Of a DNA stretch of 42,033 bases, positions 4,701 to 29,776 are shown one piece after another; positions within the stretch are counted from its first letter, which is position 1; the number at the start of each line of letters is the position of its first letter. Origin of the DNA: a virus; the IMG/VR virus record IMGVR_UViG_3300032073_000062, positions 1 to 42,033 of that record; one strand, 5' to 3'. Below the pieces are notes generated by a model that was not told where the DNA came from, made no database searches, and saw nothing but the letters and a program-made list of their open reading frames with translations. The translations under genes and the position numbers were made by a program.

Positions 4701-7700
4701 AGAAATACGTTATCAGATTTGAGAACAAAAGACTTTGTATCTGCACCGTCACCACCACTAACACTTTGACCAAATGATATTAAGTTATTATCATCAGCTT
4801 TGAATAAGAATCCACCACTCGCTGATATAAAAGCTTGAAATTCACTACCACTATAGAAACCCATATGCGGATAGTTTAAGAAAAGTCCTTCACCACTTGG
4901 AGATGGTGGTGTTTCTAGTATTGAACCACTTATGTCTGTCATTATCCTTTCCACCGTAGATGATGATACTGTGGTTATGGTGGAAGCTAGTGATGAAGAT
5001 TGTATCGAAGATGATGCAAATGCCCCACTAGCAAACAAAGAAGCCGATGCGAGTGATTGAACTCCTATCAATGAAGCAGTTAGTTCTGCATTTGATGCAA
5101 ACAATGAACCTGAATCAACCGCTCCTGTTATCTGACTACCTAGTGATGAAGTTGCTGCTAACAAAGATCCTGTTTGTTGGTCAATTGATGATAATGAATT
5201 AGAAAAAGATCCAGTAGTAGAACTTATGGAGTCTATTGTGTCTTGAGCCGGCCCAGCGGTTATTGTCAAGTGACCAGAAAATCTAGCGTTAGAAGCCGTT
5301 ATATCATTCATCACTACATCACCATCAGGTTGTAAGTGGAATCTACTAGAACTAATCTCTATATTACCATCTGAACCACTTACGAATGTAGAATCACCAC
5401 CTAAGAAGAACTTATCTGATAACATATTTATTTTAGAACCACTCATAAACACATTGTCAGCTTTTAGTACAAAAGACTTTGTATCTACTCCATCACCACC
5501 AGATACTGACTGTCCAAATGATATTAAGTTATTATCATCAGCTTTAAATAGAAAACCACCACTTGCAGAAATGAAAGCTTTGTACTCACTACCACTATAG
5601 AAGCCCATGTGTGGATAGTTTAAAAATAATCCCTCTCCACTTGGTGATGGTGGTGTTTCTAGTATTGAACCACTTATGTCTGTCATTATCCTCTCTACAG
5701 TTGAGGAGGAAACTTCTGTAATAGTAGATACTATTGAAGCTGATGTAGATGTAAACGCACCAGATACATTAGCCTCAACTGTATTTAAATCTGTTGCCAA
5801 TGAAGCTGATGCATCCGTAAAAGCACCTGATACTGATGAACTAACATCAGCTAATCCTTGAAACAACGAACCAGTTTCTTGTTCTATTGTTGATAAAGAA
5901 CTTGAAAAAGAACCTGTAGTTGAACTTATTGAATCTATTGTATTTTTAGCACTTCCACCAGTTATATTAATATTACCAGTTATTAAGGCATTAGAAGCTG
6001 TTATTTGTCCGTCTGAATTTAAAACTAAATCATTATCTATATCTGAAATTGTTGTGTTTGTTATATCAAATCCACCGATAGAGGCAGAAACAAAACTAGC
6101 AAAACCTTGATCTGTTATTACTGATTTAGGTGAACCACCAGTAGGTGTTGAAATACTATTAGCTGATAATGAACCCTCTATGGTAACTGCATCCGTGATG
6201 ATACCACCAGATAATAAAAACTTTGAACCAGTAATACCACCGTCTGAATTTAATGTTAAAGAACCATCTGAACTTGATATTGCAGTTGGTGTAATTGCAA
6301 ACCCACCAATTGTACCAGCATTAGCAGTAATAGTACCATCCATAATAACATCACCATCTGGTTTTAAATGAAAATTACTAGAACTAATTTCTATGTTACC
6401 ATTACTTCCACTTACAAATTGTGAACCACCACCTAAGAAAAATCTTTCTCCAAGAATGTTTACATTTGAACCACTTAAAAATACATTATCTGATTTAAGA
6501 ACAAATGATTTTGTTGTTGAACCATCTCCACCAGTTGTAGACTGACCAAATGAAATAAGATTATTGTCGTCTGCTTTAAATAGAAATCCTCCACTTGCGG
6601 ATATAAAAGCCTGATAAGCACTACCACTATAGAAGCCCATGTGTGGATAGTTTAAAAATAATCCCTCTCCACTTGGAGAAACTGGTAGTGATATTAGTGA
6701 ACCACTTATATCGTTTACCATTCTAGCAGCAATGGATTCTGAATTTGAAGTTTGTGTTGTTGCTAAAGATGACGATTGTATTGACGCAGATGCAAAAGCT
6801 CCACTTGCAAATAAAGAACTTGAAGCTACGGCACTAGTTGCAAATAAAGAACCCGATTCAACTGCACTACTAGCAAATAAGGAACCTGATTGAACCGCAC
6901 TTACCGAGTAAGCTGAACTAGATGCATTAGAACTCACACCAATCAATGAAGCGGTAGCTTCTGCGTTCGATGCAAACAATGAACCTGAATCAACAGCTCC
7001 AGTAATTTGATTACCCAATGAACCTGTAGATGTATTTAAGGAAGCAGTTGCCTGTCCCATAACAGACAATCCACTTTCTAAAGAAGCGGTAGCACTACCT
7101 AAAGAATTTACACCACTCTGTAAAGATGCAGTAGTTGCATTCAATGCTGCAAGTTGTGCAGCTGATGGCCCAGCTGTAATTGTTATAGAACCTTCTACTG
7201 CTAAATCACTACCATCCCAAACAAATTTATCACCTAAACTAAAATTACTTCCACTATCTACGTAGAAACCAGTATTAGAATTTCCATGAGTTCCTACACC
7301 ATTGTATAGTTTACCAGCTTGCATTTCTATTCCACCGATAGAACCTGTATTAGCTACTATACCACCTTCTAAGAAAACATTTTGACTATATAAACCAAAA
7401 CCAGCACTTGATGGATTTGTACCATGTAATTTAGCTGAACTTAATCCACTTAAATCACCAAGTCTTGCTTTTAAATCTACAGCATAAATTCCACTACCTG
7501 TTCTTTCAACAATATCTATGTAAGGTGTAGTTTGGTCATTTGGATTTGCATTTAATCTTATAAATCCAGTTCCAACTTTTCCTGTTGATACAATAACTTG
7601 ACTTCCACTATAAGTTTGAGCCGCAGATGGTGTATCTCCTAATGAACCGCTATCACCAGTAATTCCTGAACCATATGCTCTAGACACATAAAGTTTTCCA

Positions 7701-10700
7701 CTAAAATCTGTATTACTAGATGGATTATTACGAGATGCACTTTGTACCAATAAATATTCTGTTGCAAATCCAGTAGCGTTTACTTTCTTAGCAGATAGTA
7801 TTTCATCTGCTACAAATCCACCCACATTGGCGACTGACATCGTAGTATCAGAAGCACCTACCAATCCACCTAAAGAACCAGATAGTACCGTAGAATTTGC
7901 TACATATAATTGACCACCAACTGCATTAACAGTTTCCTTTTCAAATACTGCAGTAGCTAATGTTCCACGAATCCTAGCATTCTCTACTTCAAGAAAACCA
8001 CCAGAAGCTGCTGTCAATCTGAATCCACTTCCTTTCAAATTACTCGCAAAACCCTCAGACTCAATAGTACCATCACTTCTAATAATCATAGAACCACCAG
8101 TAATCTCTTCACTAGTTATAGTCCAACCTGCTATTTCATTTCCAGTTTCACCGAATTTAAATAATGTTTTTGAACTATCTGTACTATCAAGTCCTTCTAT
8201 TCCAAATTTTGGCGAACCAACTGTTCCACCAATTCTTCCTAATGATATTATCGTTGATTCAACATTAGAACCAGTTCTAGCAGTTATTTCTTTATTATAA
8301 GAATCTAATTTAATACCACCATTCGAATCAATAGAAGATATTATCTGTGATGACAAATTCCACGCAGCAATTTGACCAGAAGTAGCAGTAACTTTACCTG
8401 ACATAATAACATCACCACTTGATGATAAATGAAAATTACTTGAGCTTATTTCTACGTTACCATTCGAACCACTTACAAATTGTGAACCTTTCTTTCCTAA
8501 GAAAAACTTTGGAGTTTCTAATGTAATTTCACTACCACTTATATTAGCCCTTGTAGTTTGAATATTTACACCATTACTCGAATCGTATCTTAAAAAGTTT
8601 TGAGCGCCATCACCAACGTAGAATCTTGGAGCTCCACTATTATAACCAAATTGTATTCCTTCATTTCCAAAAGTATGGGAGTTTACAGATATTTCTGCAT
8701 TATTTCCATTTCCATTAAATCTAATTCCACCGCCTGTGCTGGTTATATTATTACCAGTTATATTCCATGCAGCAATTTTACCATCAGTAAATAATACTTT
8801 TGAACCTGTAATTTGTCCACTTGATTTTAGTATTAAATTATCGTTTGAACTTGATATAGCATTTGATGTTACCGCAAATCCACCAATCTGACCTGTAGTA
8901 GCAGTAACACTTCCTTGCATTATTGCATTACCATCTCTATCCAAATGAAATCCACTTGAACTTATTTCTACATTACCATTACTACCACTTATGTATTGTG
9001 ATGATTCTCCTAGATAAAATGTTGGTGTCGCTAGTGTAATTGAACTACCACTCATATGTACTGTTGATGCAGTTATGTCTACGGTAGTTCCATTAAATTT
9101 TATATGACCACCACTTCCTACTGCTGAAAATAATGGTGTTGAACCGCCCGCAACTGCAAGCATTATTCCTATCTCACCATAAGCTTTATCTGGAAGAGCT
9201 ACACCTGGTTGAATAGCTATAAATGGACTATTACTATTACCTCTTATAAGAATCTCTTGACCAGTTCCCAAAGACATTGAGGCTTGTGTTGATGAAAATT
9301 GAACTGCCCCTGTTGAATCAGTAAGTCCAGTATTTGATAAATTCCACCCACCTATAGAACCAGCAGTAGCAGTTACTGTTCCAGCTAATGTAACATCACC
9401 CGTATTTGTTAGATGAAAATTAGAAGAACTAATTTCTACATTACCTTCAGAACCACTTATAAATTGTGCAGTACTTCCTAAGAAAAATTTTGGTGTAGCT
9501 AAAGTAACTGAACTACCACTTAGAGTGGTGTCTCCTGTACTAAATATTTTTATATTACCAGTAGAACCACTTATAAAATTAGTATCGTTACCAAAGTAAA
9601 AATCAGATGAACTTATACTTGTATTTGTTCCATCAAATCTTAAATGACCACCAGCAGCATTACCAACTAAAAAGTGGTTATTACTACCCTGCATGTAAAT
9701 ACCTTTGTTAGTACCATCTATTCCAGTTGGTAATGTACTACCCATTCTGATAAAACCACCTTCACTAGAACTTATAAATAATTGTGTGGCACTTAATTTA
9801 AATACATCAACATCAATTTCTGCAACAGAAGCCGTAACGTCAAAACTATCCGATTTAATACTAACTCCAGTATTGTCCGCGTATAAGTAAGAAGCAGCAG
9901 AACCAACAGCAAATTTAAAGGTGCCATCTGTATCTAGTCCCATTCTTAAACCACCTGCCAAATCACCTTTATTAAATGTAGAACCACTACCCATAACTAT
10001 TAATTGATCTTCAGAACTCATTGTAACTGAATTAGGACCTGTACCTGCAGTTAAAGCTCCATCTTCAATTGTCCAACCACCAACTTCACCAGCAGTAGCT
10101 GTAATTGTACCACCCAAGTCTATGTTACTTGCAGTTATATTTCCTTCATGGTCAACTTTAAAAGCACTTGAACTAATAAATAAATCTTCTGTTGAGTTTC
10201 CAAGTTCAACTCCAGTCGTAGTTATTTTAGTATTTGCAATATTAAATCCACCTATAGTACCACCAGTAGCTGTAATTTCACCTGACATGGTTACATCACC
10301 GTCAGCTGTTAATTCAAAATTAGAAGATGATATTTGTAAATTACCTTGTGAACCACTAATAAAGTTTGCAGGACTGTGTGTTTTTCCTAAAAAGAATGTA
10401 GATGTCTTTACATCAAACAAAGATGGTTTTGTTCTAAACTTTAAATAACTTTCATCAACTCCTGTTGTACCATCATGTATCTCTATACCAGCACCTTCAT
10501 AGTTATCAGACTCATCTGGTAAAACAGAACCACTAAAAATCATGAATCCACCTTTACCATGTAAAGATGCACTTTCGAATCCCTCATACCCGACTGACCT
10601 AACAAAAGCCGAGTTGATACCAGCTGCTTCTATTCCACTACCTGCAGCATTACCCATAAATAATGAACCAGTAAGTAGGTTGTCACTACCATCAATTATA

Positions 10701-12733: not shown

Positions 12734-12741
12734 TATAAATA
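12734..12741 (+). promoter_or_regulatory. TATAAATA element, possible late-type promoter for the plus-strand gene
   Basis: TATAAATA matches the -10 consensus of T4-type late promoters and lies 73 bases upstream of the plus-strand ATG at 12814. Read on the other strand it gives ATATTTATA 28 bases before the giant fibre gene, the same arrangement seen before several other minus-strand genes. The orientation in which it works is therefore uncertain. The region is AT-rich and chance matches are possible. Confidence 0.35.
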
Positions 12742-12802
12742 TCACCATTGAAAATTTATTTAAAAATAGTATATAAAAAGTAATTAAAAAGTAGGTATTT
12801 TA

Positions 12803-17639: not shown

Positions 17640-18833
17640 TCAAATCCACTTTTTTATTTCTCTCTCAGCGAATTTCTCAGCCTTCTCTTCCCACTTATTA
17701 TCATCATGAGGATCTAATCCTTTGTATGTAGCCATAGTTCCAGCCTGAACATATTTCTTCATATACTTCTTTACACCTATTCTTTTAGCATCTAATGCGT
17801 GTCCTATTTCATGTAGTATAGTCATTAGAAATTCTTTTATATTAGGATATGATGGTCGTAAGGTTATAGTGTCCGTTTCAGGTACATATTCACCGAAGTT
17901 TTTTCCTCTACCCATTTTTATTTTAGATTTTAAGCCATATTGTTTTACTAATTGAGATGCAGTATCTTGGTAATCAACTCTTTCTAATAATGGTTTTAAT
18001 TTTATCATAGCTGGTCTTTTATATCCTCTATATTCATCACCACTATCTTTAACTTTATCATCAATATCTGACATAATATAACCAGTTGAATTACTAATAG
18101 ACTTTTTTAATGACTTCTTTTTTGATTTCCATTGAGATGGTTTAATAAAACCTGTAGCTCCTTTTAAACCTTTTATATTACCAGTTGGACTACCTTCTGA
18201 TATATTTGTAAGATTTTTAAACAAAATCTCACCAAGTTTTTCTCCAAACACAGTATCACTTGGGAAGTGTGCTCGTGCCATTGTTCTAGAATTACTTATC
18301 ATTTTTCCAACTTCCATCAAACCTTTTTCATGATGTGGATATTTTTTTCCTAATGCTCTTGCAATAAAAATACCTTGTGTAGAATGACCACTTGGATATG
18401 ATGGTGTGTTTGCAGTATTTAAATTATGTATTTTAAAATCTGGTATTTTATAAAAATCACCTAACTGAAATGGTCGAGGTCTGTTGTACTTGTATTTTAG
18501 CTCGTAAATGATACGACCACTATCTTTAATTAATTCTTTTATATATTCTTTAGGATATTTTAAATTGTTTTCTTCACAATATTTTTTAAATGAACCTTTA
18601 ACGTCATCACCTTGCTTAACATATTCATTATCTATTTTACCATCATTATAGTTTAAAAGGTAATCTAACTCTTCTCTTGTTTCTCTACTTGAATTTTGAG
18701 GAGGTGGATTATGTGCAATAACAGGCTCATGTATATAAACAAGTTCTCGTTTCATCTTCTTGCTATGTTTGTCTTTGATAGTATCAGAAAATACCATCTC
18801 ATCTAATTTTAGTAAATCTTTTAACTTAATCAT
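17640..18833 (-). CDS. Tagged PAP2 phosphatase fused to a tagged zinc metallopeptidase (putative packaged polyprotein)
   Basis: This 397-residue protein has two enzymes. Residues about 90-205 carry the PAP2/acid-phosphatase triad motifs K..YNRPRP (113-121), PSGH (147-150) and SRTMARAHFPSD (182-193), with all catalytic Arg and His residues present. Residues 276-397 carry HEIGH (341-345) and a downstream WEEKAEKFAE that could supply the third zinc ligand. The protein starts MIKLKDLLKLDE, and an almost identical MIKLKPLLE recurs at 276-284, exactly between the enzymes. Both end in L-x-E, the T4 prohead-protease site. I chose ATG 18833 over the TTG at 18848 because its ATGA overlaps the upstream stop and GGTGG precedes it. 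The internal ATG (18008) has no well-spaced ribosome site, so the fusion looks genuine. Packaging and cleavage are inferred. Confidence 0.82.
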   Translation of the reverse strand: MIKLKDLLKLDEMVFSDTIKDKHSKKMKRELVYIHEPVIAHNPPPQNSSRETREELDYLLNYNDGKIDNEYVKQGDDVKGSFKKYCEENNLKYPKEYIKELIKDSGRIIYELKYKYNRPRPFQLGDFYKIPDFKIHNLNTANTPSYPSGHSTQGIFIARALGKKYPHHEKGLMEVGKMISNSRTMARAHFPSDTVFGEKLGEILFKNLTNISEGSPTGNIKGLKGATGFIKPSQWKSKKKSLKKSISNSTGYIMSDIDDKVKDSGDEYRGYKRPAMIKLKPLLERVDYQDTASQLVKQYGLKSKIKMGRGKNFGEYVPETDTITLRPSYPNIKEFLMTILHEIGHALDAKRIGVKKYMKKYVQAGTMATYKGLDPHDDNKWEEKAEKFAEREIKKWI

Positions 18834-19210
18834 AACCACCTTTTCCAAGAACTATAATGATGTTTATTAATATGTCCTCTTTCAGGTATCTTTTCTAAAT
18901 CAGATGGTTTTCCTGTTCCACCTTTTTTAGTAATAATTCTAACTGCTTGTTTCTTTTTGCTATCTATAAGAAATACACCACCTGGTAAGTTACTAATCTG
19001 CATTCCCTTTTCAGCTCTTACCATAGTAGCTTTATCTCTGTAAATCATTTTGTTACCACCAGGTCCAGCACTAGACCATTGTCCAGTTGGTTCTTTGTCA
19101 CCACTAGCAACATAAAGATTGAATGGTTTCTTTACAAAAAAGTGTACCTTATCACTTCCATACAACGGGTGTTTGTAAACTTCTGTTAGTATATCTTTTA
19201 ATTTAATCAT
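18830..19210 (-). CDS. Tagged putative internal virion protein, unknown function
   Basis: This 126-residue protein starts MIKLKDILTE followed by VYKHPL, a capsid-targeting-like tag ending in L-T-E. The mature part is basic and mostly beta-like (KVHFFVKKPFNLYVASG, NLPGGVFLIDSKKKQAVRIITKKG) with no motif that I recognise and no transmembrane helix. Its ATG overlaps the stop of the neighbour upstream (ATGA) and its stop overlaps the start of the PAP2-metallopeptidase gene in the same way. The three genes are therefore probably made in fixed proportion. It could be an effector or a DNA-binding internal protein; the sequence does not decide. Confidence 0.72.
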   Translation of the reverse strand: MIKLKDILTEVYKHPLYGSDKVHFFVKKPFNLYVASGDKEPTGQWSSAGPGGNKMIYRDKATMVRAEKGMQISNLPGGVFLIDSKKKQAVRIITKKGGTGKPSDLEKIPERGHINKHHYSSWKRWL

Positions 19211-20124
19211 ACCTGGTCAATTATTCCTTCTCTTGCATTGTACCATTTTCTAAACTTTGCTGGTGTTCCTATAGTTATTTTACTTTCAGGAACCCATTTT
19301 AACATCTCTTTTTTCCATTCACCAGGTTTTCCCATATATTCCCATCCAGCTTTTTTTGCTTCCCTACTCAATATAAAAGCATCTATTACTTTAGTATCGT
19401 AGATAAGTATTTCATTCCACCACGCAGAACGTTTATCTTCTGGTGTTCTAAGATTTTTCTTTATAAGTTCTTTATTTTGTTTTAACCATTTGTTTTGCCA
19501 GTCAAAAAAATCTTTGATGAATTTATTTATAAAAGGATTAGTTTCCTTTTCTACTATCTTTTTATATTCAAGATACGGCATCTGTTCATCATCTTCCATC
19601 CATTGTTTTTCATACTTTTCTTTAATCTTATATATCTCATCAAAAAGTTTTTCTCGTTTCTTTGGAATACCAGCTTTCTCATAAGCCTTATTAAATATCG
19701 TTCTGTCGCCTGTAATATAATGTCCCGCAATCCATCTACGACCTGTCTTATCAGGTATCGTATCAAAGTCCATATATCTAGTTGCTAATAATGTTCCTTT
19801 CATATAAAATATAACACCACCTTGTCCAGTCTGAACACCTTTACCTTTTGCTAGTGGTGAATCGTTATTAGCACGAGTGAATGTTGATATGGATTTTTTC
19901 TTACCGATTACCTTACCTAATTGTCTTATATGGTCTGGACTTGTAAGATGAAATGAACTGATAGGTTGTTTTCCAAACATTTTTTCCATTTGTGTTGGAT
20001 AAAGAGCAATATGATCTCTCATTGATATCATATCCATAGTAGGTTTAGTATGAGCAGGAAACCACATGGTTTTACCCTTATGCGTTAACCACTCTTCAGT
20101 TAACAAATCTTTTAACTTAATCAT
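19207..20124 (-). CDS. Tagged putative internal protein with possible ADP-ribosyltransferase-like fold
   Basis: This 305-residue protein starts MIKLKDLLTE followed by EWLTHKG, the same tag as its neighbours. The mature part shows SSFHLTSPDHIRQLGKVIG (57-74), then KSISTFTRA (77-85), GGVIFYMKG (102-110) and WWNEILIYDTKVIDAFIL (235-252). The order H-x-T-S, S-T-x-T, hydrophobic strand, then N-E-I-L resembles the His/Ser-Thr/Glu strands of ADP-ribosyltransferase-type folds, and T4 packages an ADP-ribosyltransferase (Alt) as an internal protein. The match lacks the full STS and ExE motifs, so this is a suggestion only. A charged helical stretch fills 140-225. The start overlaps the upstream stop (TAATG) and the stop overlaps the next start (ATGA). 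Confidence 0.6.
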   Translation of the reverse strand: MIKLKDLLTEEWLTHKGKTMWFPAHTKPTMDMISMRDHIALYPTQMEKMFGKQPISSFHLTSPDHIRQLGKVIGKKKSISTFTRANNDSPLAKGKGVQTGQGGVIFYMKGTLLATRYMDFDTIPDKTGRRWIAGHYITGDRTIFNKAYEKAGIPKKREKLFDEIYKIKEKYEKQWMEDDEQMPYLEYKKIVEKETNPFINKFIKDFFDWQNKWLKQNKELIKKNLRTPEDKRSAWWNEILIYDTKVIDAFILSREAKKAGWEYMGKPGEWKKEMLKWVPESKITIGTPAKFRKWYNAREGIIDQV

Positions 20125-20504
20125 TACTCAACATTATCACTATCATATACATATTCGAACCAACCACCATACTGAGAGTCAGCATCACGATATACATTTT
20201 CCCAATCTTTTAATGTACGATATGCACTTGGATTACTTGTCTTCACATCATGAATCTTTTCAAACATTTTATTAAGTTTATTCATATCAGAAACAATTTT
20301 ATTAGCCATTCTTTCCATCTTTTTTATATCAGACTTCTTGGCTTCTGTAATAGTTTCTTCTTTAACCTGAAAGGGTGGTCTATCTTTATCTGTGTAAAGT
20401 TTACCTAATTGGTGGTCTTTCATTACACTATCAAATGTAGGAAGTGGTTCACCAAACTTTCTATTACCAAAAGCTTCTTTAATTATTTTTTTTAATTTTA
20501 TCAT
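20124..20504 (-). CDS. Tagged helical putative internal virion protein
   Basis: This 126-residue protein starts MIKLKKIIKE followed by AFGNRKF, a variant of the capsid-targeting-like tag ending in I-K-E before Ala, as in T4 internal proteins. A second I-T-E-Ala site lies at 52-55 (ETITEAKK). Cleavage at both would leave a C-terminal helical domain of about 70 residues (KKMERMANKIVSDMNKLNK and following) with an acidic, aromatic tail. No enzymatic motif is visible. This is the first gene of the group transcribed after the 51-base gap at 20505-20555. Its AAGGG ribosome site is 9 or so bases from the ATG. It may be an effector or a core-packing protein. Confidence 0.68.
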   Translation of the reverse strand: MIKLKKIIKEAFGNRKFGEPLPTFDSVMKDHQLGKLYTDKDRPPFQVKEETITEAKKSDIKKMERMANKIVSDMNKLNKMFEKIHDVKTSNPSAYRTLKDWENVYRDADSQYGGWFEYVYDSDNVE

Positions 20505-20526
20505 ATTAATTACCCTTAAATATACC

Positions 20527-20534
20527 TATAAATA
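20527..20534 (-). promoter_or_regulatory. ATATTTATA-type intergenic motif before the tagged genes
   Basis: The minus strand reads ATATTTATA here (TATAAATA on the plus strand), 23 bases before the ATG at 20504. The same motif in the same orientation precedes the genes at 12706, 22335, 26894 and 29721. It could be a promoter element or a regulator site. The motif also occurs by chance within coding DNA of this AT-rich genome. Confidence 0.32.
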
Positions 20535-20555
20535 TTATATAAGTCAAGTGTTATT

Positions 20556-21401
20556 TTACCATTTTCTACAAGACCAATAACGTGCTTTATGACGAGGTCC
20601 TGGATTATCACAATTATGACGAGCTCTAAATGATTTACGAGCTCCTGGATTAGACTTTCTAATCTTCATTGTACCACCCTTAGCACCACCACCTTGACCA
20701 AAATTTACTTTAACCACATTACCTTTAGGGTTTTTAACATATACTTTAAATTTCTTTGTATCACCCTGCATAATCTTACCAAGCTTTACTTTTCTACCTT
20801 GGTATTCTGCTTCGTTTAAATCTTTATTATCAAATTGAAATGTATATCCACCACTCTCACCTATGTTGTTTTCCCAATAAACTTCACCTTCACCAACCCA
20901 AGTGGTTGTCTGTATTCCTTCTTTCTTTACACAGTTGGGATACATCTTACCAAACATCTTCTTCATACCTTTTTTCTCGTAACCTTTCCAACACGCCTCA
21001 CATAAACATTTATTTTCATTTACAGATTCATTAGCCAATTGAAGAGCATCTTTAACTTTAGTATGTTTTGACATTCCTTTAAACATCTTCTCAATTTTTT
21101 TGACAGCACCACTCATATTACCACTCATCGATTTAGCTATCTTGACTGCTTTGTCAACCTTTGCTTTAGGAAATAAGGAATCAAGGAAATCTCCTTTCTT
21201 CTCATTCACACCTTCTTTTTTAGAGTTACCCCAATTAGCTGCACCGACTTTACGACACTTTACAAGAGCACCACTTGCGTATGCAGATGGCCATACATCG
21301 TAACGAGCTTTTACTTTACGATAACAAGCATCTTTCTTACCAGCGGCTTCATCAAACTGAGCTTCTGTAATAGGTTTTCCTACTAACTCTTCTAACTTCA
21401 T
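20556..21401 (-). CDS. Basic multi-module phage protein with repeated (L/I)-x-E/A junctions (putative packaged polyprotein)
   Basis: This 281-residue, strongly basic, Cys-containing protein is built of modules common in marine T4-like phages. Residues 22-60 hold KKDACYRKVKARYDVWPSA and the following YASGALVKCRKVG. Residues 132-162 hold CWKGYEKKGMKKMFGKMYPNC. Residues 246-281 hold KSFRARHNCDNPGPRHKARY and YWSCRKW. Each segment starts just after a possible prohead-protease site: ITE13-Ala, LCE135-Ala and LNE197-Ala. The N-terminus (MKLEELVGKPITE) is a longer version of the tag on neighbouring genes. The paired Cys/His in each module could bind zinc. A role as an internal DNA-associated protein cut into pieces in the head is inferred. 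A GGAGAG ribosome site precedes the ATG. Confidence 0.75.
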   Translation of the reverse strand: MKLEELVGKPITEAQFDEAAGKKDACYRKVKARYDVWPSAYASGALVKCRKVGAANWGNSKKEGVNEKKGDFLDSLFPKAKVDKAVKIAKSMSGNMSGAVKKIEKMFKGMSKHTKVKDALQLANESVNENKCLCEACWKGYEKKGMKKMFGKMYPNCVKKEGIQTTTWVGEGEVYWENNIGESGGYTFQFDNKDLNEAEYQGRKVKLGKIMQGDTKKFKVYVKNPKGNVVKVNFGQGGGAKGGTMKIRKSNPGARKSFRARHNCDNPGPRHKARYWSCRKW

Positions 21402-21410
21402 TATACTCTC

Positions 21411-22124
21411 CTATTTCTTTGGTTTGGTAGATACTCTAATTGGTTTCTTACCACCACCACTTAATGATGATGTTCCACCTCTACCTGCTTTGTTCTGAGC
21501 AGCTCTTTTTCTACGAGTCGCACTTGCTTTTTGTTTCTTACTCATATTAGCTGCTTTAGAAGCTGGAACACATTTAGCGTATCCTCTCTTCTTACCACTA
21601 CTACCACACGGCGGATGTCCACCACCTTTTTTCTTTTTACCGATGTTTACCCATCTATCTGAAAACCATTTCTTTAAATTTTCATTAGATATATTACCAC
21701 AATGAATACAAGTATTATCTTCTACAATTTCTTTTAACCTAGAAGTATCAACACCTTCTGGTATTGGCATTCCAAGTTCTTTTGGTGCTACTACCTTTCT
21801 TACAATTGTCCAAGCTTTTTTCAATTGATTCTTTTTAGGTTCTAAATATCGGTCACTTATCTTTAATCCAGTACCTTTAACTGGTACACCAATCTTCAAC
21901 CAAGCATCATGAATCTTTTTTCTTTGAGTTGGTGAAGCGTCTCTTAAATAGTGTCTGTAGTCATGAGGCCAAAACCAATCTCTTCCATTGTATTTTTTTG
22001 AACCAACTGATTCATTCTTTCTCTTTTTCTTTTTAAGTAAATGAGAACCAGCAGGTTCATCACCTAACTTACCATCTATTCCGTAACCACAGGTTCCTTC
22101 TAATATATCTTTTAACTTAATCAT
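21411..22124 (-). CDS. Tagged basic Cys-rich phage protein, putative internal virion protein
   Basis: This 237-residue protein starts MIKLKDILE followed by GTCGYG. I chose ATG 22124 because the tag begins there and it lies one base after the upstream stop. The longer open frame to 22292 runs antiphase through another gene. The middle (about 47-120) has a W-rich helical region (GRDWFWPHDYRHYLRDASP). C139-x2-C142 in CIHCG may bind zinc. Residues 150-215 contain the module KKWFSDRWVNIGKKKKGGG followed by PCGSSGKKRGYAKCVPASKA and RRKRA, widely seen in marine phage proteins but of unknown role. The C-terminus is Lys/Arg/Gly-rich and probably binds DNA. It lies beside the other tagged genes and is likely packaged with them. 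Confidence 0.75.
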   Translation of the reverse strand: MIKLKDILEGTCGYGIDGKLGDEPAGSHLLKKKKRKNESVGSKKYNGRDWFWPHDYRHYLRDASPTQRKKIHDAWLKIGVPVKGTGLKISDRYLEPKKNQLKKAWTIVRKVVAPKELGMPIPEGVDTSRLKEIVEDNTCIHCGNISNENLKKWFSDRWVNIGKKKKGGGHPPCGSSGKKRGYAKCVPASKAANMSKKQKASATRRKRAAQNKAGRGGTSSLSGGGKKPIRVSTKPKK

Positions 22125-22125
22125 T

Positions 22126-22335
22126 TTAGTCAGACTTTTTCTTTTTCCACTTGGATTTCCAATTACCCCAAGCTCCACCTTTCTTACCTTTACCTTCTTT
22201 ACCTTTGACTTTCTTACCCTTCTTCTTTTTCTTTTTCTTAATCTCTTCCATACCAGCATTATTACTAGCTTGTAGAGTTGGTACTGAACCAAAAAGAAAA
22301 ATACCAGTAAGTAAAATTTTTAATAGATTTTTCAT
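22126..22335 (-). CDS. Secreted lysine-rich small peptide
   Basis: This 69-residue protein has a textbook Sec signal peptide: MKNLLK, then the hydrophobic ILLTGIFLFGSVP, then TLQA before SNN as the likely cleavage site. The mature part is about 45 residues, almost entirely Lys and Gly with three Trp (GMEEIKKKKKKKGKKVKGKE and onwards, ending KWKKKKSD). Such a polycation in the periplasm would bind nucleic acid, lipopolysaccharide or peptidoglycan. It could also be membrane-active like a cationic antimicrobial peptide. A TTAGGAG ribosome site and the motif at 22353-22367 lie upstream, so this may be the first gene of a transcript that continues into the tagged internal-protein genes. Confidence 0.75.
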   Translation of the reverse strand: MKNLLKILLTGIFLFGSVPTLQASNNAGMEEIKKKKKKKGKKVKGKEGKGKKGGAWGNWKSKWKKKKSD

Positions 22336-22352
22336 TACACTTCTCCTAATTA

Positions 22353-22367
22353 TATAAATAAATATCG
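22353..22367 (-). promoter_or_regulatory. 15-base conserved intergenic motif CGATATTTATTTATA (copy 1)
   Basis: The minus strand reads CGATATTTATTTATA, identical over 15 bases to the copy at 29762-29776, although the surrounding sequence is unrelated. It lies 18 bases before the ATG at 22335. The exact identity in two separate gene-start gaps suggests a shared promoter or operator. Its orientation relative to T4-type late promoters (TATAAATA) is reversed, so I do not name its class. Confidence 0.42.
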
Positions 22368-22373
22368 TTTAAA

Positions 22374-23027
22374 TTATTTTTTAGTACTACTTACTAATTT
22401 ATCAGAAACTTGAGCACTTAATACCGATTGTATAGTAAAGTATAGTGATGGATTACGTTTCAATAGTTCTTTAAACTCTCTCTGTTTCCATACTAAACAT
22501 TGAGTCTCGTATTTTACTTTACAAGTTGCAGTAGCAACTTTCTCTGTAAGGAAAGACATTTCACCAACAAACTCACCATCTCTTAATTCTGCTATTTGTT
22601 CATTATCAACAAGTACATCTACAGTTCCATTGTATATTAAATATAAATCAGGAACCGGCATACCTTGAGTTATAACTCTCATATTTGGTTTCAAAGTTTC
22701 CCATTGTGCAGCTCTACTGATTTTAAGATATTCAACTGGTGTCATTTCTTTGAATAAGGTTTGATATAACTCTTCGTTTTTTGAGTCCATTTTAACTTGA
22801 CGTTTTTCGTATAATATAATTGCTATATGATATAGATTGACACCGATAAAAACTACATTCCAAAATATAGCAATAACCATAGGTTCTGCAGGAATGAAAT
22901 AATTATAGAATATTGAAAAACAACTGGCAGTTATTGACATTAATCTTAACCAAAAAATATCTTTGACTAAGAATGAAAGTGCAATTAAACCAAATGCTAA
23001 ATGTCCTGTTAAATCTCCAATATTCAT
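22374..23027 (-). CDS. Popeye-like membrane protein with cyclic-nucleotide-binding fold
   Basis: This 217-residue protein has three hydrophobic helices (about 8-25, 28-45 and 48-74, including SFLVKDIFWLRLMSITAS and FWNVVFIGVNLYHIAIILY), followed by a cytoplasmic cNMP-binding-type beta-roll at about 83-210. That architecture and the RD/KDI.WLRL...FW...F...NLY pattern are those of Popeye-domain (POPDC-type) proteins. The roll has G-TVDVLVDN...L-DGEFVGEMSFL; the Glu of the phosphate-binding cassette is kept (Glu156) but the cassette Arg is replaced by small residues (KVATAT), as also happens in Popeye proteins. It may sense a cyclic nucleotide or act as a membrane scaffold. It begins two bases after the stop of the gene upstream with no clear ribosome site, so coupling is likely. 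This would be unusual phage cargo. Confidence 0.78.
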   Translation of the reverse strand: MNIGDLTGHLAFGLIALSFLVKDIFWLRLMSITASCFSIFYNYFIPAEPMVIAIFWNVVFIGVNLYHIAIILYEKRQVKMDSKNEELYQTLFKEMTPVEYLKISRAAQWETLKPNMRVITQGMPVPDLYLIYNGTVDVLVDNEQIAELRDGEFVGEMSFLTEKVATATCKVKYETQCLVWKQREFKELLKRNPSLYFTIQSVLSAQVSDKLVSSTKK

Positions 23028-23029
23028 TA

Positions 23030-23245
23030 TTATTTATTTAGATTATTTGGTGGTATTATAAAATCTTCTTCAGATTTACCCAATTTTTCTAAACCTTCTT
23101 GTTCTTTTATATATTTTGCAAATTTTTTTGTAATTATTTCAGCAACTGTTTCCGAAACCTTTCTGTTATTCCAATCTGCCATCCGATGTGCGTATAGAGA
23201 ATCTTTTATCATTGTCACCAAAGATACAAAATGTTTCTTTTTCAT
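23030..23245 (-). CDS. Small helical protein of the envelope block, unknown
   Basis: This 71-residue predicted helical protein is unrecognised: MKKKHFVSLVTMIKDSLYAHR, then DWNNRKVSETVAEIITKKFAKYIKEQEG and an acidic/polar tail (SEEDFIIPPNNLNK). It has no signal peptide or transmembrane span. Its ATG overlaps the stop of the holin-like gene (TAATG) and the Popeye-like gene starts two bases after its stop. This tight packing suggests that the three products are used together. It could be a small soluble partner of one of the two membrane proteins. Confidence 0.6.
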   Translation of the reverse strand: MKKKHFVSLVTMIKDSLYAHRMADWNNRKVSETVAEIITKKFAKYIKEQEGLEKLGKSEEDFIIPPNNLNK

Positions 23246-23559
23246 TAGTCATTCTTTTTTTTAGAATGTCTGAACCAAAAGTCTATTGTTTTACCAAAAG
23301 TAGCAATAAACGTACCTAATATAATATTCAATAAATCTCTATGTTGTTCATCTAAATCTAATACAGGATGAAATAATAGATGTAACACCCAATATAGTAC
23401 AGCAAACATACCACCAGTAATAGTAAATTGCATCCAATCTGGTAAACCATCTCCACCATGTAGTTCATCAGGACCTGTAAGCCATTCCGTTTTATTTTTC
23501 TTTTTCTCAGCTCCATGTGCACAAGCTGGACATTTGTGTTCTATTTTAGTATCGGCCAT
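23245..23559 (-). CDS. Small two-helix membrane protein, candidate holin
   Basis: This 104-residue protein has two transmembrane helices (about 45-64, FTITGGMFAVLYWVLHLLF, and 75-95, LLNIILGTFIATFGKTIDFWF) separated by a short acidic loop, with a basic end (RHSKKKND). The second helix with its GTFIATFGK..DFWF ending resembles a class of phage holins that end in a Gly-containing helix and a charged tail. The N-terminal 40 residues are soluble and contain CPAC (Cys10-x2-Cys13), possibly zinc-binding. If it is the holin it would release the GH108 endolysin encoded at 422-904. Both its ends overlap neighbouring genes by TAATG. Other small membrane-protein roles cannot be excluded. Confidence 0.6.
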   Translation of the reverse strand: MADTKIEHKCPACAHGAEKKKNKTEWLTGPDELHGGDGLPDWMQFTITGGMFAVLYWVLHLLFHPVLDLDEQHRDLLNIILGTFIATFGKTIDFWFRHSKKKND

Positions 23560-23936
23560 TAGAATACGTCCTCCGCTAAAACTTCAGATATAGCATCTTT
23601 TATATCATCGTTAGTTACATCAATTTCACCATCCATGTCGGCTTTCCAAACTTTCTTTTTAGAACCACCGTGAAATAAACCAATAGATGGGAAGTTTCTT
23701 AATCTTAATTTTTTAGAGGTTTTTTTAGTATCCTCTGATTTTACAGTTATGATTATAGCTTCTTCATGACCTTTAACTCCTTCTAGAATACTCTCATCTA
23801 ATTCTTGTTCTTGCCATTCGGAAGTAAATACTACTACTGAAAACCCATCACCTATTTTATCTTTGAAATTCTTATCAGTAACCTGTGACATTACCGTAGA
23901 TAAGAAAAATAATAATCCAATAAAATATCTCATCAT
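23559..23936 (-). CDS. Exported thioredoxin-fold protein lacking the CxxC active site
   Basis: This 125-residue protein has a signal peptide (RYFIGLLFFLSTVMSQ) and a mature domain with a thioredoxin-like layout: FSVVVFTSEWQEQELDE, where the active-site CxxC should follow the Trp, then AIIITVKSED, and NFPSIGLFHGG with the cis-Pro (Pro83). The expected cysteines are absent; the segment after Trp41 reads QEQE. It is therefore not a redox enzyme of the usual type and may be a binding or chaperone-like module in the periplasm. Two adjacent ATGs (23936, 23933) exist; GGAG is better spaced for the second. It sits between the MshEN-like and holin-like genes. Confidence 0.7.
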   Translation of the reverse strand: MMRYFIGLLFFLSTVMSQVTDKNFKDKIGDGFSVVVFTSEWQEQELDESILEGVKGHEEAIIITVKSEDTKKTSKKLRLRNFPSIGLFHGGSKKKVWKADMDGEIDVTNDDIKDAISEVLAEDVF

Positions 23937-23942
23937 AATCTC

Positions 23943-24542
23943 CTACTTATCTCTTTTGTTAGCTACTTGAACTCGTAACTCTGTTACTAACTTTTTTAAA
24001 TCTTTAACATCATCTTCTAAATCATCCAACCTATCAAATACAGTATCCATATCATCTTGTAAATCCCCAACCTGTTGGTTGTATTGTTCCTTAGACCTTG
24101 GCCAGTTATGTCCTTCAGGTCTTGATGGATACTCATCTTTGTAGATTGCTTCTATATCAATCTTTGGAAGTTCTTTAGCTTCTTGTATTTCTTGTAATAA
24201 CATATAATAACCACCAACTCCACCAGCTATAACAGTTGCTAAAGCACCGATAGTTTGAACCGACATTGTGAATTTAGTTCCCATAACTTTTTCTTCACTT
24301 AGTTCAACAGGTTCATTTTTAGATTCTACTTTTTCTACTACTTCTTCTTCAACCTTATGTTGAGGTTCATCCATCAATGCGTCTGTAATATCATCTAGGG
24401 TGCAAAATCCTTTATCTACAAGTATCTCACCCAATGCTCTTTTATCTCCTTTTATCTGATCTTGAAGAGCTTGGTTTAGTTGTCTCTTTGTAATGATATC
24501 CTCATCACAAAGTAACTTACCTATTTTAATATCACCATTCAT
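23943..24542 (-). CDS. MshEN-like cytoplasmic domain, single membrane helix and coiled coil
   Basis: This 199-residue protein has two tandem copies of an MshEN/GspE-N-like motif at the N-terminus: KIGKLLCDEDIITKRQLNQAL (from 6) and ALGEILVDKGFCTLDDITDAL (from 36). In MshE the same double motif binds c-di-GMP; here the first copy has Lys for Arg and lacks one Gly. An acidic linker (60-90) leads to one transmembrane helix (about 94-116, SVQTIGALATVIAGGVGGYYMLL). A second half follows that ends in an acidic/Leu coiled coil (DLQDDMDTVFDRLDDLEDD and onwards). By charge the N-terminus faces the cytoplasm and the coiled coil the periplasm, like an inner-membrane spanin with a sensor domain added. 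A lipoprotein gene lies immediately upstream. Ligand binding and spanin function are inference. Confidence 0.68.
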   Translation of the reverse strand: MNGDIKIGKLLCDEDIITKRQLNQALQDQIKGDKRALGEILVDKGFCTLDDITDALMDEPQHKVEEEVVEKVESKNEPVELSEEKVMGTKFTMSVQTIGALATVIAGGVGGYYMLLQEIQEAKELPKIDIEAIYKDEYPSRPEGHNWPRSKEQYNQQVGDLQDDMDTVFDRLDDLEDDVKDLKKLVTELRVQVANKRDK

Positions 24543-24551
24543 TTTATTCCC

Positions 24552-25097
24552 CTAATAATACTCACTATAAAATGTATTAGTAGTATCAGTATCTATTGGT
24601 AGATTTTCAAATACCACTAATCCGTTTTGAAATTCTTCTCTATATGGATTCCAAAAAGTTCCTTCGGCATATCCACTAACAACATTATTATGAAGTTCGT
24701 TTATGATACCTTGTCCATTTGTTGTATAATCTGAAGTACCTACAATCTCCAATACAATACCTTTTGAAGACGCTGTATCTGGATTTACATAAACACCCAA
24801 ATCAATTAAGTCATTATCATCATCTGCATCAGTATCATAAAAGATTAGAGCATAATGTTCCTTTTCAGGACTTATACGACCTAAACTTTTTTGAAAATGA
24901 ATAACGAATATTTTTTTTACTGAACCATCTTCTTGTATTATCTTTTTACCAAAAGTAGTAATACTTTCATAATAATCATATACAGGTATAATGTCACCAT
25001 TAACCCACATTCCAATATCTTCTACGACAGGAATCTCAACTCTTTCGTCTTCACAACTCCAAAATAGTAATCCTATCAATAATAATAATCTTTTCAT
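24552..25097 (-). CDS. Lipoprotein of the envelope block
   Basis: This 181-residue protein has the N-terminus MKRLLLLIGLLFWSC followed by EDERVE. The Cys15 after a hydrophobic stretch reads as a lipobox, although Trp-Ser before the Cys is not the commonest form. The acidic residues directly after the Cys favour outer-membrane sorting in some bacteria and surface retention in others. The mature part is beta-rich and acidic, with an Asp-rich loop (YDTDADDDNDLIDLG) that could bind calcium. It ends in tyrosines (TFYSEYY). I do not recognise the family. It is longer than typical o-spanins and not Pro-rich, so although it neighbours a membrane/coiled-coil protein, an o-spanin role is uncertain. A GGAGATGG ribosome site lies in the upstream gene end. 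Confidence 0.68.
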   Translation of the reverse strand: MKRLLLLIGLLFWSCEDERVEIPVVEDIGMWVNGDIIPVYDYYESITTFGKKIIQEDGSVKKIFVIHFQKSLGRISPEKEHYALIFYDTDADDDNDLIDLGVYVNPDTASSKGIVLEIVGTSDYTTNGQGIINELHNNVVSGYAEGTFWNPYREEFQNGLVVFENLPIDTDTTNTFYSEYY

Positions 25098-25310
25098 TTA
25101 CCATCTCCAATGTAAGCGTTTATGTCTTCGTTTTTTCCACTTACGTTTATGTTTACATTTATGTTTATGTAAACAGGTTTCAATATTTAATGTATACCAA
25201 GGTTTATGCTTTACAATGATATGTTGGTGTCCACAATTTTTATGTTTACCTACCTCATATCCACTTGAAAAAGCAATCATAAATACCACTATATATTCTA
25301 TACCTGGCAT
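25098..25310 (-). CDS. Membrane-anchored His/Lys/Cys-rich small peptide
   Basis: This 70-residue protein has one hydrophobic N-terminal helix (IEYIVVFMIAFSSGYEVG) followed by a basic tail with nine His and three Cys (GKHKNCGHQHIIVKHKPW, then ETCLHKHKCKHKRKWKK and RRHKRLHWRW). The dense His/Cys suggests metal binding and the Lys/Arg suggests binding to nucleic acid or to a phosphate-rich surface. I do not recognise the family. It is packed tightly between the beta-barrel gene (adjacent) and the lipoprotein gene (start in its end), each with its own ribosome site (GGGGTGG here), which supports it being expressed. Confidence 0.6.
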   Translation of the reverse strand: MPGIEYIVVFMIAFSSGYEVGKHKNCGHQHIIVKHKPWYTLNIETCLHKHKCKHKRKWKKRRHKRLHWRW

Positions 25311-26591
25311 TTACCACCCCACAAATTGATAGTTTATACCAAACTTTAAATCATACGCTGGTTTATCCCAATAGTAAAGATATCTACCTTCAGAAAATAC
25401 ACCTAAGTTATCTTTTATCTTTACACCAAAGATAGCACCGATATCATAATCATTCCAAGCTTTCCAACTAGGTTCTGAAAATTCAAATAAATGTGGTAGT
25501 CTTTTATCATCTTTATGTTGTTTATAAGAATCAGCGTTATGATAAGAATATGTATCATGTCCGTAGTGATATGGCATCCAATTACCCCAAGCATGTAACC
25601 ACCAATTCTCATCATAATGATAAAAATCAGCACCTAAAACTAAAGATGTTTCTCGTTGAAATCCAAGGTCTGTCTTGACTTCATCTATATATTCTTCTAA
25701 CATACCTGGAAAATGATATAGAAAGTATTCTCTATCTGTGTAAGCAAATATTCTACCATCTTCGTCTCTCCATAACCAATCATGTCCCCAATATTCACCA
25801 CCTTCATTCCATAAAGGACCTGCACCTTCAATTTCTCTAAGTTCGCCAGTTACAGGATCATATTCATATAGTTGTTGTTTTATCCAATTTCCATCTTCAT
25901 CTTGCATTGTTGGATCAAACCACATATTGTCGTCAATACCAAATGCGTCTTCTGCAAAGTTCCACCATTGTCCTCTATACCAAGTTGTATCTAATATAGC
26001 CGCATCAAATCCATAAACAGGATGTTGTCTGTGTTTAACACCAGCACTTATGTTTAGTCCACCGATTGATTTCTTTATTCGTAAATCACCATGAACATAC
26101 TGAACATCTTCCAATCCAAGTTCGGTGTAACCACCTTTAATCATAAACCACTCACCTACATATCGTAACCAGTATTCTTGATTAAGGTAATCATCACCCC
26201 ATTGTCTACCTTCAGACCATTTAGCTAAAAACTCCCAACCCTTTACAGGACCGAATGTTGCATTTTCATTTGCTGATTGTTCAGAACCATCGTACCAAGT
26301 TCCACCATTACCAGCATTCTTAACACCACGTTTTGGTTCGTACTTAAAACGACCTATTTTTCTAATACCTAATGACTTTTGAAAATCAGGTTCTAGTTCA
26401 CGTTTTTCCCTTTTGAACTCTAATTGTCCAGTAGACAAACCACCGACAATAGCAAATCTATCGTCTTGGTGTCTTGGTGCATTAAGACTGAAACTCGCAT
26501 AAGCTGTGGAATACTTAAAGAATTTCCATATTTCATTTTCAGCAAACAAAGATGAGGTTATTAATAAACCTATTATAATTTTCTTTAACAT
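25311..26591 (-). CDS. Phage-encoded outer-membrane beta-barrel protein
   Basis: This 426-residue protein has a Sec signal peptide (MLKKIIIGLLITSSLFA, cut before ENE). The mature protein is rich in Trp, Tyr, Gly and alternating strands (GWEFLAKWSEG, YWLRYVGEWFMIKGGYTEL, GLNISAGVKHR, TSLVLGADFYHYD, WLHAWGNWMPYHYG) and ends DLKFGINYQFVGW. Alternating strands with a terminal aromatic are the signature of outer-membrane barrels recognised by BamA. Long acidic, Trp-rich loops (about 205-300) would be surface-exposed. Such proteins on phages commonly alter receptors or exclude other phages; that role is inferred. I cannot name the family. A strong AGGAG ribosome site precedes the ATG. The gene heads the envelope block. 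Confidence 0.75.
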   Translation of the reverse strand: MLKKIIIGLLITSSLFAENEIWKFFKYSTAYASFSLNAPRHQDDRFAIVGGLSTGQLEFKREKRELEPDFQKSLGIRKIGRFKYEPKRGVKNAGNGGTWYDGSEQSANENATFGPVKGWEFLAKWSEGRQWGDDYLNQEYWLRYVGEWFMIKGGYTELGLEDVQYVHGDLRIKKSIGGLNISAGVKHRQHPVYGFDAAILDTTWYRGQWWNFAEDAFGIDDNMWFDPTMQDEDGNWIKQQLYEYDPVTGELREIEGAGPLWNEGGEYWGHDWLWRDEDGRIFAYTDREYFLYHFPGMLEEYIDEVKTDLGFQRETSLVLGADFYHYDENWWLHAWGNWMPYHYGHDTYSYHNADSYKQHKDDKRLPHLFEFSEPSWKAWNDYDIGAIFGVKIKDNLGVFSEGRYLYYWDKPAYDLKFGINYQFVGW

Positions 26592-26609: not shown

Positions 26610-26894
26610 TTAACCTAATGTATCCCCTTTGTCATCCTCAAAATGAGATGAACCACTTATTACAGGTGGTGTTGGAGCTACATAAAATTCTGAACCAGTT
26701 AGATGTCCAATTAATTTGTTTTTAACCTGAGTCAAACTAGCATCTTCTGCTAAACTGTGGTCAACAAACTGATGATATTGTCCATCTGAACCTGATACTC
26801 TCAATACCCAATAAGCAAAGTCACCATCAGTAAATTCTTTTCTAACTGATTCTAACTTTGAACTTTGAGCTTGTGCTTCTGTAAAACTTGCCAT
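26610..26894 (-). CDS. Small unknown protein between structural and envelope genes
   Basis: This 94-residue soluble, Ser/acidic protein is of unknown family. It has MASFTEAQAQSSKLESVRK, then DFAYWVLRVSGSDGQYHQF, VKNKLIGHLTGSEFYVAPT and a disordered, acidic end (GSSHFEDDKGDTLG). The order of a helix and a beta part looks like a small virion accessory protein. It is transcribed after the paralogous tail proteins and has an excellent AAGGAG ribosome site after a 30-base gap that holds the ATATTTATA motif. It may therefore be either the last structural gene or the first gene of the envelope transcript. Confidence 0.6.
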   Translation of the reverse strand: MASFTEAQAQSSKLESVRKEFTDGDFAYWVLRVSGSDGQYHQFVDHSLAEDASLTQVKNKLIGHLTGSEFYVAPTPPVISGSSHFEDDKGDTLG

Positions 26895-26916: not shown

Positions 26917-26924
26917 TATAAATA
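26917..26924 (-). promoter_or_regulatory. ATATTTATA-type intergenic motif before 26894
   Basis: The minus strand reads ATATTTATA, overlapping the end of the gap after the stop of the 374-residue protein and 23 bases before the ATG at 26894. It matches the motif before 12706, 20504, 22335 and 29721. It could mark the start of the envelope-block transcript. Chance occurrence is possible. Confidence 0.32.
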
Positions 26925-28049
26925 TTAGTTTGTGTCAAATCTGACCACAAATGTTAAAGCTAATTCTTTATCATTTTTAATTGGTTTTGCTGTTTTAGCA
27001 ATTGCCAGTAATTCGTTGTTACTATTATACAATCCAATTGATGTAACATAAGTAGCAAAATCAGAATGTGTGGCTTCACCAATTAATTCTGTACCGATTT
27101 TATATTCTTCATTTTTAAACGAACCAGTAGAGTATCCAGTTAAATCATATGGGTACTCATCTTGAACTGTATTTTTATATATGTCATCAGTATACTTGTT
27201 ACCAAAAAATCCAACACTACCACTCTGACCAACTTTTAAACTTCTATTATTAGTGTGTTGAAAATCATCTTCACTAACTTTACAAACATATTCTCTTTCA
27301 TAAATAGTTTGTGTTGAATCAAAAGTTAAACTAAATCCATCACTACCATCACCACTTCCTACTGTAGAGTATGAGCCAGTATCCGTAATAACTATTATAC
27401 CCTCATCATAAAATACATTACCAACAACACTACCACTATTATTAGAGTCTGGTGTATTTACAGAATAACTAGAACTAAATGCAGTATCGTACAAATTTCC
27501 GTAACCATCATCTTGTAAAATAAATGTTGAAGCAGTACTGTCATCTACTAATCTAATAGAATCTCTAGCTATAGATTCACCAAATAACCGTTGAGGTACA
27601 GATATAACAACTGCAGCGTCGTGTAGTTGCCTTGTATATGGTCTTCTTAATTTTTGTTGATGTAAGTTATCTACAGTATGATATAAATGTCTAGTTTCTG
27701 TGTACTCTAAAACTGCATCTGAAGATGTAGGAACTCCTTTAATGTAACTAACACTAGCATTTACTTCAGGATGTTTACTATCAGGTGTAATATTATACAA
27801 CTCACCAATATCTCTATAAAATAATTTGTTAATTGTATAGTAAGTTGGAACATTGTAAAATGTACTACCAGAGATAGTTGTTGAATCAGCAGTTGCTGTA
27901 CTAAAATTAGAAAGATTTGAATCACTACCTTTTGTTATTGATATTGAATAAACACCACTTCCACTATCTACATTAGTTACAGTAAAAGTTTTATGAACTT
28001 CAAACGGTGAGATTAAGATATCATCGGATTCGAGATTCTTGTACGGCAT
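26925..28049 (-). CDS. Tail/baseplate structural protein (paralog A)
   Basis: This 374-residue, beta-rich, Ser/Thr/Asp-rich protein begins MPYKNLESDDILISPFEVHK. Its C-terminal 50 or so residues (TYVTSIGLYNSNNELLAIAK followed by TAKPIKND) closely match the end of the protein at 28061-29104 (TSVGMYNNNNQLIAIAKLSKP). That C-terminal pattern occurs in virion structural proteins of large tailed phages and probably forms a conserved attachment or oligomerisation fold. With its place after the tail genes, a baseplate or fibre-attachment role is likely. A GGGGG ribosome site precedes the start. Confidence 0.72.
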   Translation of the reverse strand: MPYKNLESDDILISPFEVHKTFTVTNVDSGSGVYSISITKGSDSNLSNFSTATADSTTISGSTFYNVPTYYTINKLFYRDIGELYNITPDSKHPEVNASVSYIKGVPTSSDAVLEYTETRHLYHTVDNLHQQKLRRPYTRQLHDAAVVISVPQRLFGESIARDSIRLVDDSTASTFILQDDGYGNLYDTAFSSSYSVNTPDSNNSGSVVGNVFYDEGIIVITDTGSYSTVGSGDGSDGFSLTFDSTQTIYEREYVCKVSEDDFQHTNNRSLKVGQSGSVGFFGNKYTDDIYKNTVQDEYPYDLTGYSTGSFKNEEYKIGTELIGEATHSDFATYVTSIGLYNSNNELLAIAKTAKPIKNDKELALTFVVRFDTN

Positions 28050-29761: not shown

Positions 29762-29776
29762 TATAAATAAATATCG
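29762..29776 (-). promoter_or_regulatory. 15-base conserved intergenic motif CGATATTTATTTATA (copy 2)
   Basis: This is identical to the 15 bases at 22353-22367. It lies 41 bases before the ATG at 29721, in the 79-base gap after the 1185-residue gene. It is a likely promoter or regulatory site for the 29721-26925 structural genes. The rest of the gap shows no terminator-like hairpin. Confidence 0.42.

Follow-up and report, generated by a model that had tools for sequence, protein, structure and literature searches.

The stretch examined here, IMG/VR virus record IMGVR_UViG_3300032073_000062 (positions 1 to 42,033, hereafter the window), raises the question of what nine consecutive minus-strand genes, most of them for predicted envelope proteins (22126-26591), do beside the tail genes of a virus. 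The window is a 42-kb virus fragment with every gene on one strand, and its PHROG matches (baseplate wedge genes, primase, SbcC-like, RusA-like and endolysin) identify it as part of a large myovirus. The nine genes consist of a fixed core, BARREL-(LIPO)-MSHEN-TRX, and exchangeable cargo, since the core order holds in relatives and the other genes move or are sporadic. The best overall explanation, to which we assign a probability of about 0.5, is a composite tail-class operon that makes a late trans-envelope complex and has lysis genes attached. It was built on gene order, conservation, fold families, gene neighbourhoods and a shared promoter-like element. The features concerned are the following:

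26918-26925, minus strand: ATATTTAT promoter-like element, upstream of g94 and the block
26610-26894, minus strand: g94, small protein, probable first gene of the block's transcription unit, 18-nucleotide (nt) gap to BARREL
25311-26591, minus strand: BARREL, 426 aa, predicted signal peptide and outer-membrane beta-barrel; core
25098-25310, minus strand: HK70, 70 aa, His/Lys-rich, N-terminal hydrophobic segment; sporadic
24552-25097, minus strand: LIPO, lipoprotein with lipobox ...FWSC and a beta-rich domain; common, not obligate
23943-24542, minus strand: MSHEN, MshEN-type N-domain (about 6-56), transmembrane (TM) segment 98-116, coiled coil (about 150-197); core
23559-23936, minus strand: TRX, predicted exported thioredoxin-fold protein without CxxC; core
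23245-23559, minus strand: HOL104, small holin-like membrane protein; movable lysis cargo
23030-23245, minus strand: g71, 71 aa, no membrane feature; accompanies POP in few loci
22374-23027, minus strand: POP, three-TM protein with Popeye/cyclic-nucleotide-binding fold, no phosphate-binding Arg; movable, lysis-linked
22358-22365, minus strand: ATATTTAT promoter-like element, upstream of K_sec69
22126-22335, minus strand: K_sec69, small predicted exported poly-Lys protein, probable first gene of the next unit

The nine open reading frames (ORFs) were confirmed, as was the statement of the initial annotation that eight of them have envelope features. A signal peptide, lipobox or TM segment was predicted for all but g71, compared with 0/27 other genes of the window (Fisher P=3.0e-7); localisation was called by a simple hydrophobicity and lipobox rule, not by SignalP. 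The enrichment extends to related loci, where export or membrane features occur in 113/260 non-core block genes vs 89/707 genes elsewhere (P=2e-23). The block is tightly packed, with intergenic spacings of -1, -1, 0, 0, 2, 6, 9 and 38 nt. The frequent overlaps that had been described are a slight overstatement, because only two pairs (TRX/HOL104 and HOL104/g71) overlap, by 1 nt each; two further pairs abut.

The block was compared with about 220 loci, and IMG/VR, whose records are fragments, was scanned with POP, BARREL, MSHEN and a pilin as seeds. Redundancy was removed by clustering at 90%, and loci on the same contig were merged through protein clustering only. Relatives of MSHEN are encoded in at least 458 IMG/VR stretches. 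MSHEN is immediately followed by TRX in 55/55 non-redundant loci, and BARREL lies within six genes upstream of MSHEN in all 52 such loci with enough flank. LIPO is found within five genes of MSHEN in 38/52 distinct copies and is absent there in the other 14. In 42/49 loci, the four genes upstream of BARREL include a tail gene of the g347 or g374 family, two families scored by one profile. Median pairwise identity is 75% for BARREL, 73% for POP, 63% for MSHEN, 58% for TRX and 51% for LIPO, compared with 37-43% for the adjacent tail genes; BARREL is more similar than the primase in 82% of locus pairs. The dN/dS (nonsynonymous to synonymous substitution) ratios of 0.08-0.11 (BARREL, 0.086) correspond to purifying selection. 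Given this fixed order and conservation, the core is one functional unit, and the predicted addresses of its proteins run from the outer membrane through to the cytosol.

These data also bear on whether the block is a pile of unrelated morons at a tolerant site between late genes. HK70, g71, K_sec69, HOL104 and POP do vary in presence and place, as such a pile would. The core keeps its order across loci in which the adjoining tail genes mostly share 25-47% identity with their window counterparts, so this explanation is already contradicted for the core, and for the block as a whole we regard it as very improbable. The coherent envelope programme that had been proposed therefore stands for BARREL, MSHEN and TRX, which are not scattered in relatives, and does not extend to the five variable genes, which are.

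The block reads as one operon of the tail class because the octamer ATATTTAT is found ahead of both the block and tail genes and is nearly absent from the interior of the block. The octamer is present in 240/785 intergenic upstream stretches, about 41-fold over coding DNA, and 47/68 distinct loci have it in the interval from the last tail gene to BARREL. Within 120 nt upstream it was found for MSHEN in 1/69 cases, TRX in 0/67, POP in 0/68 and pilins in 0/88. In the window it stands ahead of g205, g94, K_sec69, g126 and a giant gene, and further intergenic copies lie upstream of gene groups (e.g., 29767-29774, 20528-20535 and 12735-12742). Judging from this placement, ATATTTAT is likely to be a phage promoter class; a sigma-70 promoter scan gave chance-level results. 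Reverse-complementing the T4 late TATAAATA gives TATTTATA, an extended form of the octamer. The positions of the octamer indicate that the likely transcription unit is g94-BARREL-HK70-LIPO-MSHEN-TRX-HOL104-g71-POP, probably opened by g94. The block boundary is corrected accordingly: K_sec69, which has its own promoter-like element and likely opens the next unit, groups with the downstream p727 genes. Because ATATTTAT is placed before tail and SLT transglycosylase genes, we infer a late promoter, and the block operon, which shares this class with the tail genes, is probably expressed late.

The site occupied by the block corresponds to the tail-fibre locus of relatives, which could not be recognised in the initial annotation. 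Two cultured relatives, Flavobacterium phage immuto (NC_055915) and Microcystis phage Mel-JY01 (PP395634), have the same tail gene order (g78-g334-bpW-bp662-g367-g1185-g205-g347-g374) followed by the primase. The interval between the tail genes and the primase contains genes annotated as tail fibre and spike in immuto and large unannotated genes in Mel-JY01; in the window, the block occupies this site. MSHEN is missing from both cultured genomes. Elsewhere in the window, a 3767-aa protein (1403-12706) ends in a C-terminal S74 intramolecular chaperone domain and is probably a giant tail fibre that has been moved away from where fibres are normally encoded.

Exclusion genes of known phages often adjoin adhesin genes, so the tail-fibre site fits another suggestion, namely that surface proteins of the block hide or disable the phage receptor, like T5 Llp, phi80/N15 Cor or the Pseudomonas phage proteins Tip and Aqs1. 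Phages are also reported to block PilB and thereby exclude superinfection (PMC11656802). Exclusion morons such as these and lambda Lom share with the block envelope proteins by a tail adhesin site and, for the PilB inhibitors Tip and Aqs1, a possible pilus target. They are usually one small gene of varied sequence, whereas the block core is multi-gene, strictly ordered and highly conserved. A BARREL identity of about 75% and a dN/dS of about 0.09, against 37-43% identity in tail genes, are unlike an arms race, and the promoter element shared with the tail suggests late expression. Receptor masking or superinfection exclusion by the core, both proposed initially, is thus possible in principle, and we consider it unlikely.

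The individual core proteins were then compared with known folds. The MshEN-like label of MSHEN was borne out by a match to NCBIfam NF053729 above the cut-off (2.1e-12) and, in the PDB, by profile matches to PilF (1.1e-8), MshE (0.0012) and PilB. This is the N-terminal regulatory fold of PilB/GspE/MshE motors, with the tandem motifs present, and a TM and heptad check confirmed one TM segment and a coiled coil, the latter probably periplasmic from the predicted topology. Short MSHEN copies proved to be an ORF-calling artefact, and a GTG start restores the full double motif. The MshEN motif for cyclic di-GMP (c-di-GMP) consists of two 24-residue RLGxx..G..L...L..Q units with conserved Arg, Gly and Gln (PMC5013675). 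In MSHEN, the Gly18 position is Asp in 20/20 sequences, the Arg38 position is T, S, K or A, and the Gln61 position is variable; c-di-GMP sensing was rejected despite the confirmed fold, as the key residues are altered.

TRX matched thioredoxins/TXNDC5 by profile (up to 2.9e-14), so its thioredoxin-like label holds for the fold, by profile only. The CxxC redox site is absent, with SEWQEQ at the active-site position. BARREL gave an AlphaFold2 (AF2) model with strands at low confidence (predicted local distance difference test, pLDDT, 55.6) whose best Foldseek matches in the PDB are outer-membrane barrels, which lends some support to the label it had been given. No relatives of BARREL were found by sequence in GTDB contigs, the phage collection or the PDB. 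A bacterial origin of BARREL was not supported, with no confirmed relative in a GTDB contig pattern scan or in five genomes bearing POP relatives, both limited searches. The lipoprotein label of LIPO is supported by an invariant lipobox Cys (Cys15); its AF2 model (pLDDT 83) shows a beta-rich domain with no significant match in the PDB or BFVD.

Pilins are block members in many relatives, which likewise could not be seen from the window, where there are none. In 15/44 loci the core is followed by two to four tandem genes for type IV pilins that have the N-methylation motif, and PF07963 scored above the cut-off in 14/19 related records. One pilin tested had geopilin and PilA as its best structure matches. 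Tandem pilins, including the GQSLAEF type, lie directly downstream of the block at L009:11567-12931, L053:13554-15112 and L055:16909-18455, followed by the c34 and c20 families. The pilins are accessory because 29/44 loci and several large records are without them. Neither the platform protein PF00482 (T2SSF) nor the motor ATPase PF00437 (T2SSE) above the cut-off was found in the 19 records, which are fragments. A phage-coded pilus motor was rejected: the PF00437 matches, at about 15 bits, are below the cut-off and lie within frames of about 400 aa, and PF00482 is missing. The phrase "phage-encoded pilin" was not found in the literature searched.

From these parts we infer localisation, complex formation, timing, docking partner and effect as follows. 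The operon, being of the tail promoter class, would be expressed late, apparently together with the tail. BARREL would be an outer-membrane barrel, usually accompanied by the lipoprotein LIPO; TRX would be a periplasmic, redox-dead thioredoxin fold; and MSHEN would sit in the inner membrane, with its MshEN-type head in the cytosol and its coiled coil in the periplasm. Together, these proteins would probably span the envelope of the infected cell as a single assembly, which might plug into the host type IV pilus/type II secretion machinery and block it, re-tip it or borrow its export. This docking is a tentative proposal, which we favour because the MshEN head has the N-terminal fold of the motors and because a third of the relatives add two to four pilins without a motor or platform. 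The likeness to type IV pilus/type II secretion system (T2SS) parts lies in this fold and in the GFTLIEL-class pilins beside the core in relatives. In contrast to those parts, MSHEN has no ATPase domain and instead has a TM segment and coiled coil, its c-di-GMP motif is degenerate, the phage records contain no motor or platform, and BARREL is no recognised secretin.

Several points weigh against a late trans-envelope complex docked on such machinery. The published relaxed c-di-GMP motif matches 0/20 MSHEN sequences, and some glycosyltransferases, such as NfrB, have MshEN domains too. The barrel fold of BARREL comes from a low-confidence model only, and LIPO is missing near some cores. No pilin lies near the core in most loci with enough flank, and several large records have none. 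The late timing is based on a motif, and that the host has type IV pili or a type II system is an assumption.

The adjacency of a lipoprotein gene and a TM/coiled-coil gene also suggests a lysis apparatus, in which LIPO and MSHEN would be a spanin-like pair of outer-membrane lipoprotein and inner-membrane coiled coil, BARREL would help to breach the outer membrane, and HOL104 and POP would set the timing. The topology of a spanin pair fits, holins lie near the core in 22/44 loci, POP is found beside endolysins and transglycosylases, and the promoter element is common to tail and SLT genes. However, LIPO is absent within five genes in 14/52 copies, and the endolysin of the window is about 22 kb away. 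To our knowledge, no spanin pair is accompanied by an outer-membrane barrel, an MshEN head or pilins, and described lysis cassettes, which the block resembles in HOL104, in the neighbours of POP and in the lipoprotein with its inner-membrane partner, contain no outer-membrane barrel, thioredoxin fold, MshEN head or Popeye protein. A lysis function of the whole core is therefore rather unlikely.

For the cargo, the timed lysis suggested at first gains support from gene neighbourhood, and we consider it fairly probable that POP and HOL104 are lysis-linked genes added to the operon of the trans-envelope complex. POP follows TRX in some loci; elsewhere it immediately follows an SLT transglycosylase or HOL gene, or a GH108 endolysin gene comes next. 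A lysis-type gene (holin, SLT or GH108) is within three genes of POP in 21/34 loci (random genes: mean 7.8, maximum 16), a count that leans on HOL104, itself weak as a holin; SLT or GH108 alone lie within two genes in 11/34. HOL104 stands directly before POP in about 10/34 POP loci. Its holin-like label is weak, with matches to phrog_9990, a PHROG of unassigned function (7e-4, window copy), and to the holin phrog_689 (0.0014, a relative); a three-TM holin, phrog_3427 (3.2e-27), is present in relatives. The 96-kb record of L055 has POP at a considerable distance from the block, and several records of at least 100 kb have POP without MSHEN, although these are fragments and absence is not proven. 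Among the remaining genes, g71 accompanies POP in L001, L005, L013 and L018, HK70 was found in one relative only (the close relative L033), and K_sec69 homologues recur sporadically in block neighbourhoods.

The Popeye label of POP was confirmed by Pfam PF04831 (2.3e-15; 57.4 bits vs a gathering score of 28.1), together with PF00027 (4.9e-14), and the relatives have three TM segments. The nucleotide-binding domain matches PycTIR and PycC in PADLOC (1e-12 and 9.5e-8) and PycTIR in the PDB (3.5e-9), which raises the idea that POP works against nucleotide-based host defence, or imitates it, as a cyclic-nucleotide sponge or a Pycsar-like effector. In the phosphate cassette (GEMSFLTExxATA), Ala takes the place of the cyclic-phosphate Arg in 19/19 phage copies. 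POP, which recurs among lysis genes, is not accompanied by a cyclase or TIR partner. A defence role is accordingly very unlikely, and cAMP/Pycsar sensing was rejected for the missing Arg. Full-length bacterial homologues (43-48% identity; Bacteriovoracaceae and Chloroherpetonaceae) have the same Arg-less site; unlike them, POP is phage-encoded and linked to lysis genes. The bacterial loci L079-L089, from Bacteriovoracaceae, Chloroherpetonaceae and Phycisphaeraceae, encode Popeye-like membrane proteins that also lack this Arg. The phage collection contained no POP relatives, and no phage paper on Popeye proteins was found in the literature searched.

Phage envelope genes are usually single, fast-changing morons. 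The locus shows a conserved, strictly ordered multi-protein set at a tail-fibre site in hundreds of uncultured viral contigs, often with pilins. If it forms a working trans-envelope complex, lytic phages would act on the living host envelope beyond puncturing it, and the MSHEN head would be a direct biochemical handle for identifying the target, with host motor or platform proteins as candidates. A more far-reaching version, which we think improbable, is that a myovirus lineage, marine as read from sample type and published relatives rather than computed, builds a late machine of outer-membrane barrel, periplasmic scaffold and inner-membrane adaptor that seizes the host type IV filament/type II motor and uses phage pilins to run a pseudopilus under phage control, serving export, release or the shutdown of receptors.

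Downstream of the block, the consecutive genes mprot, g126b, g305, g126 and p727b (17640-22124) have a common N-terminal tag, M(I)KLKDLL/ILxE, which is carried by 106 proteins in related loci and, like the tag of T4 internal proteins, may serve as a signal for packaging or targeting. One tagged protein of 402 aa (17640-18848) contains a PAP2 phosphatase domain (PF01569, 1.1e-9) and is perhaps a delivered lipid phosphatase.

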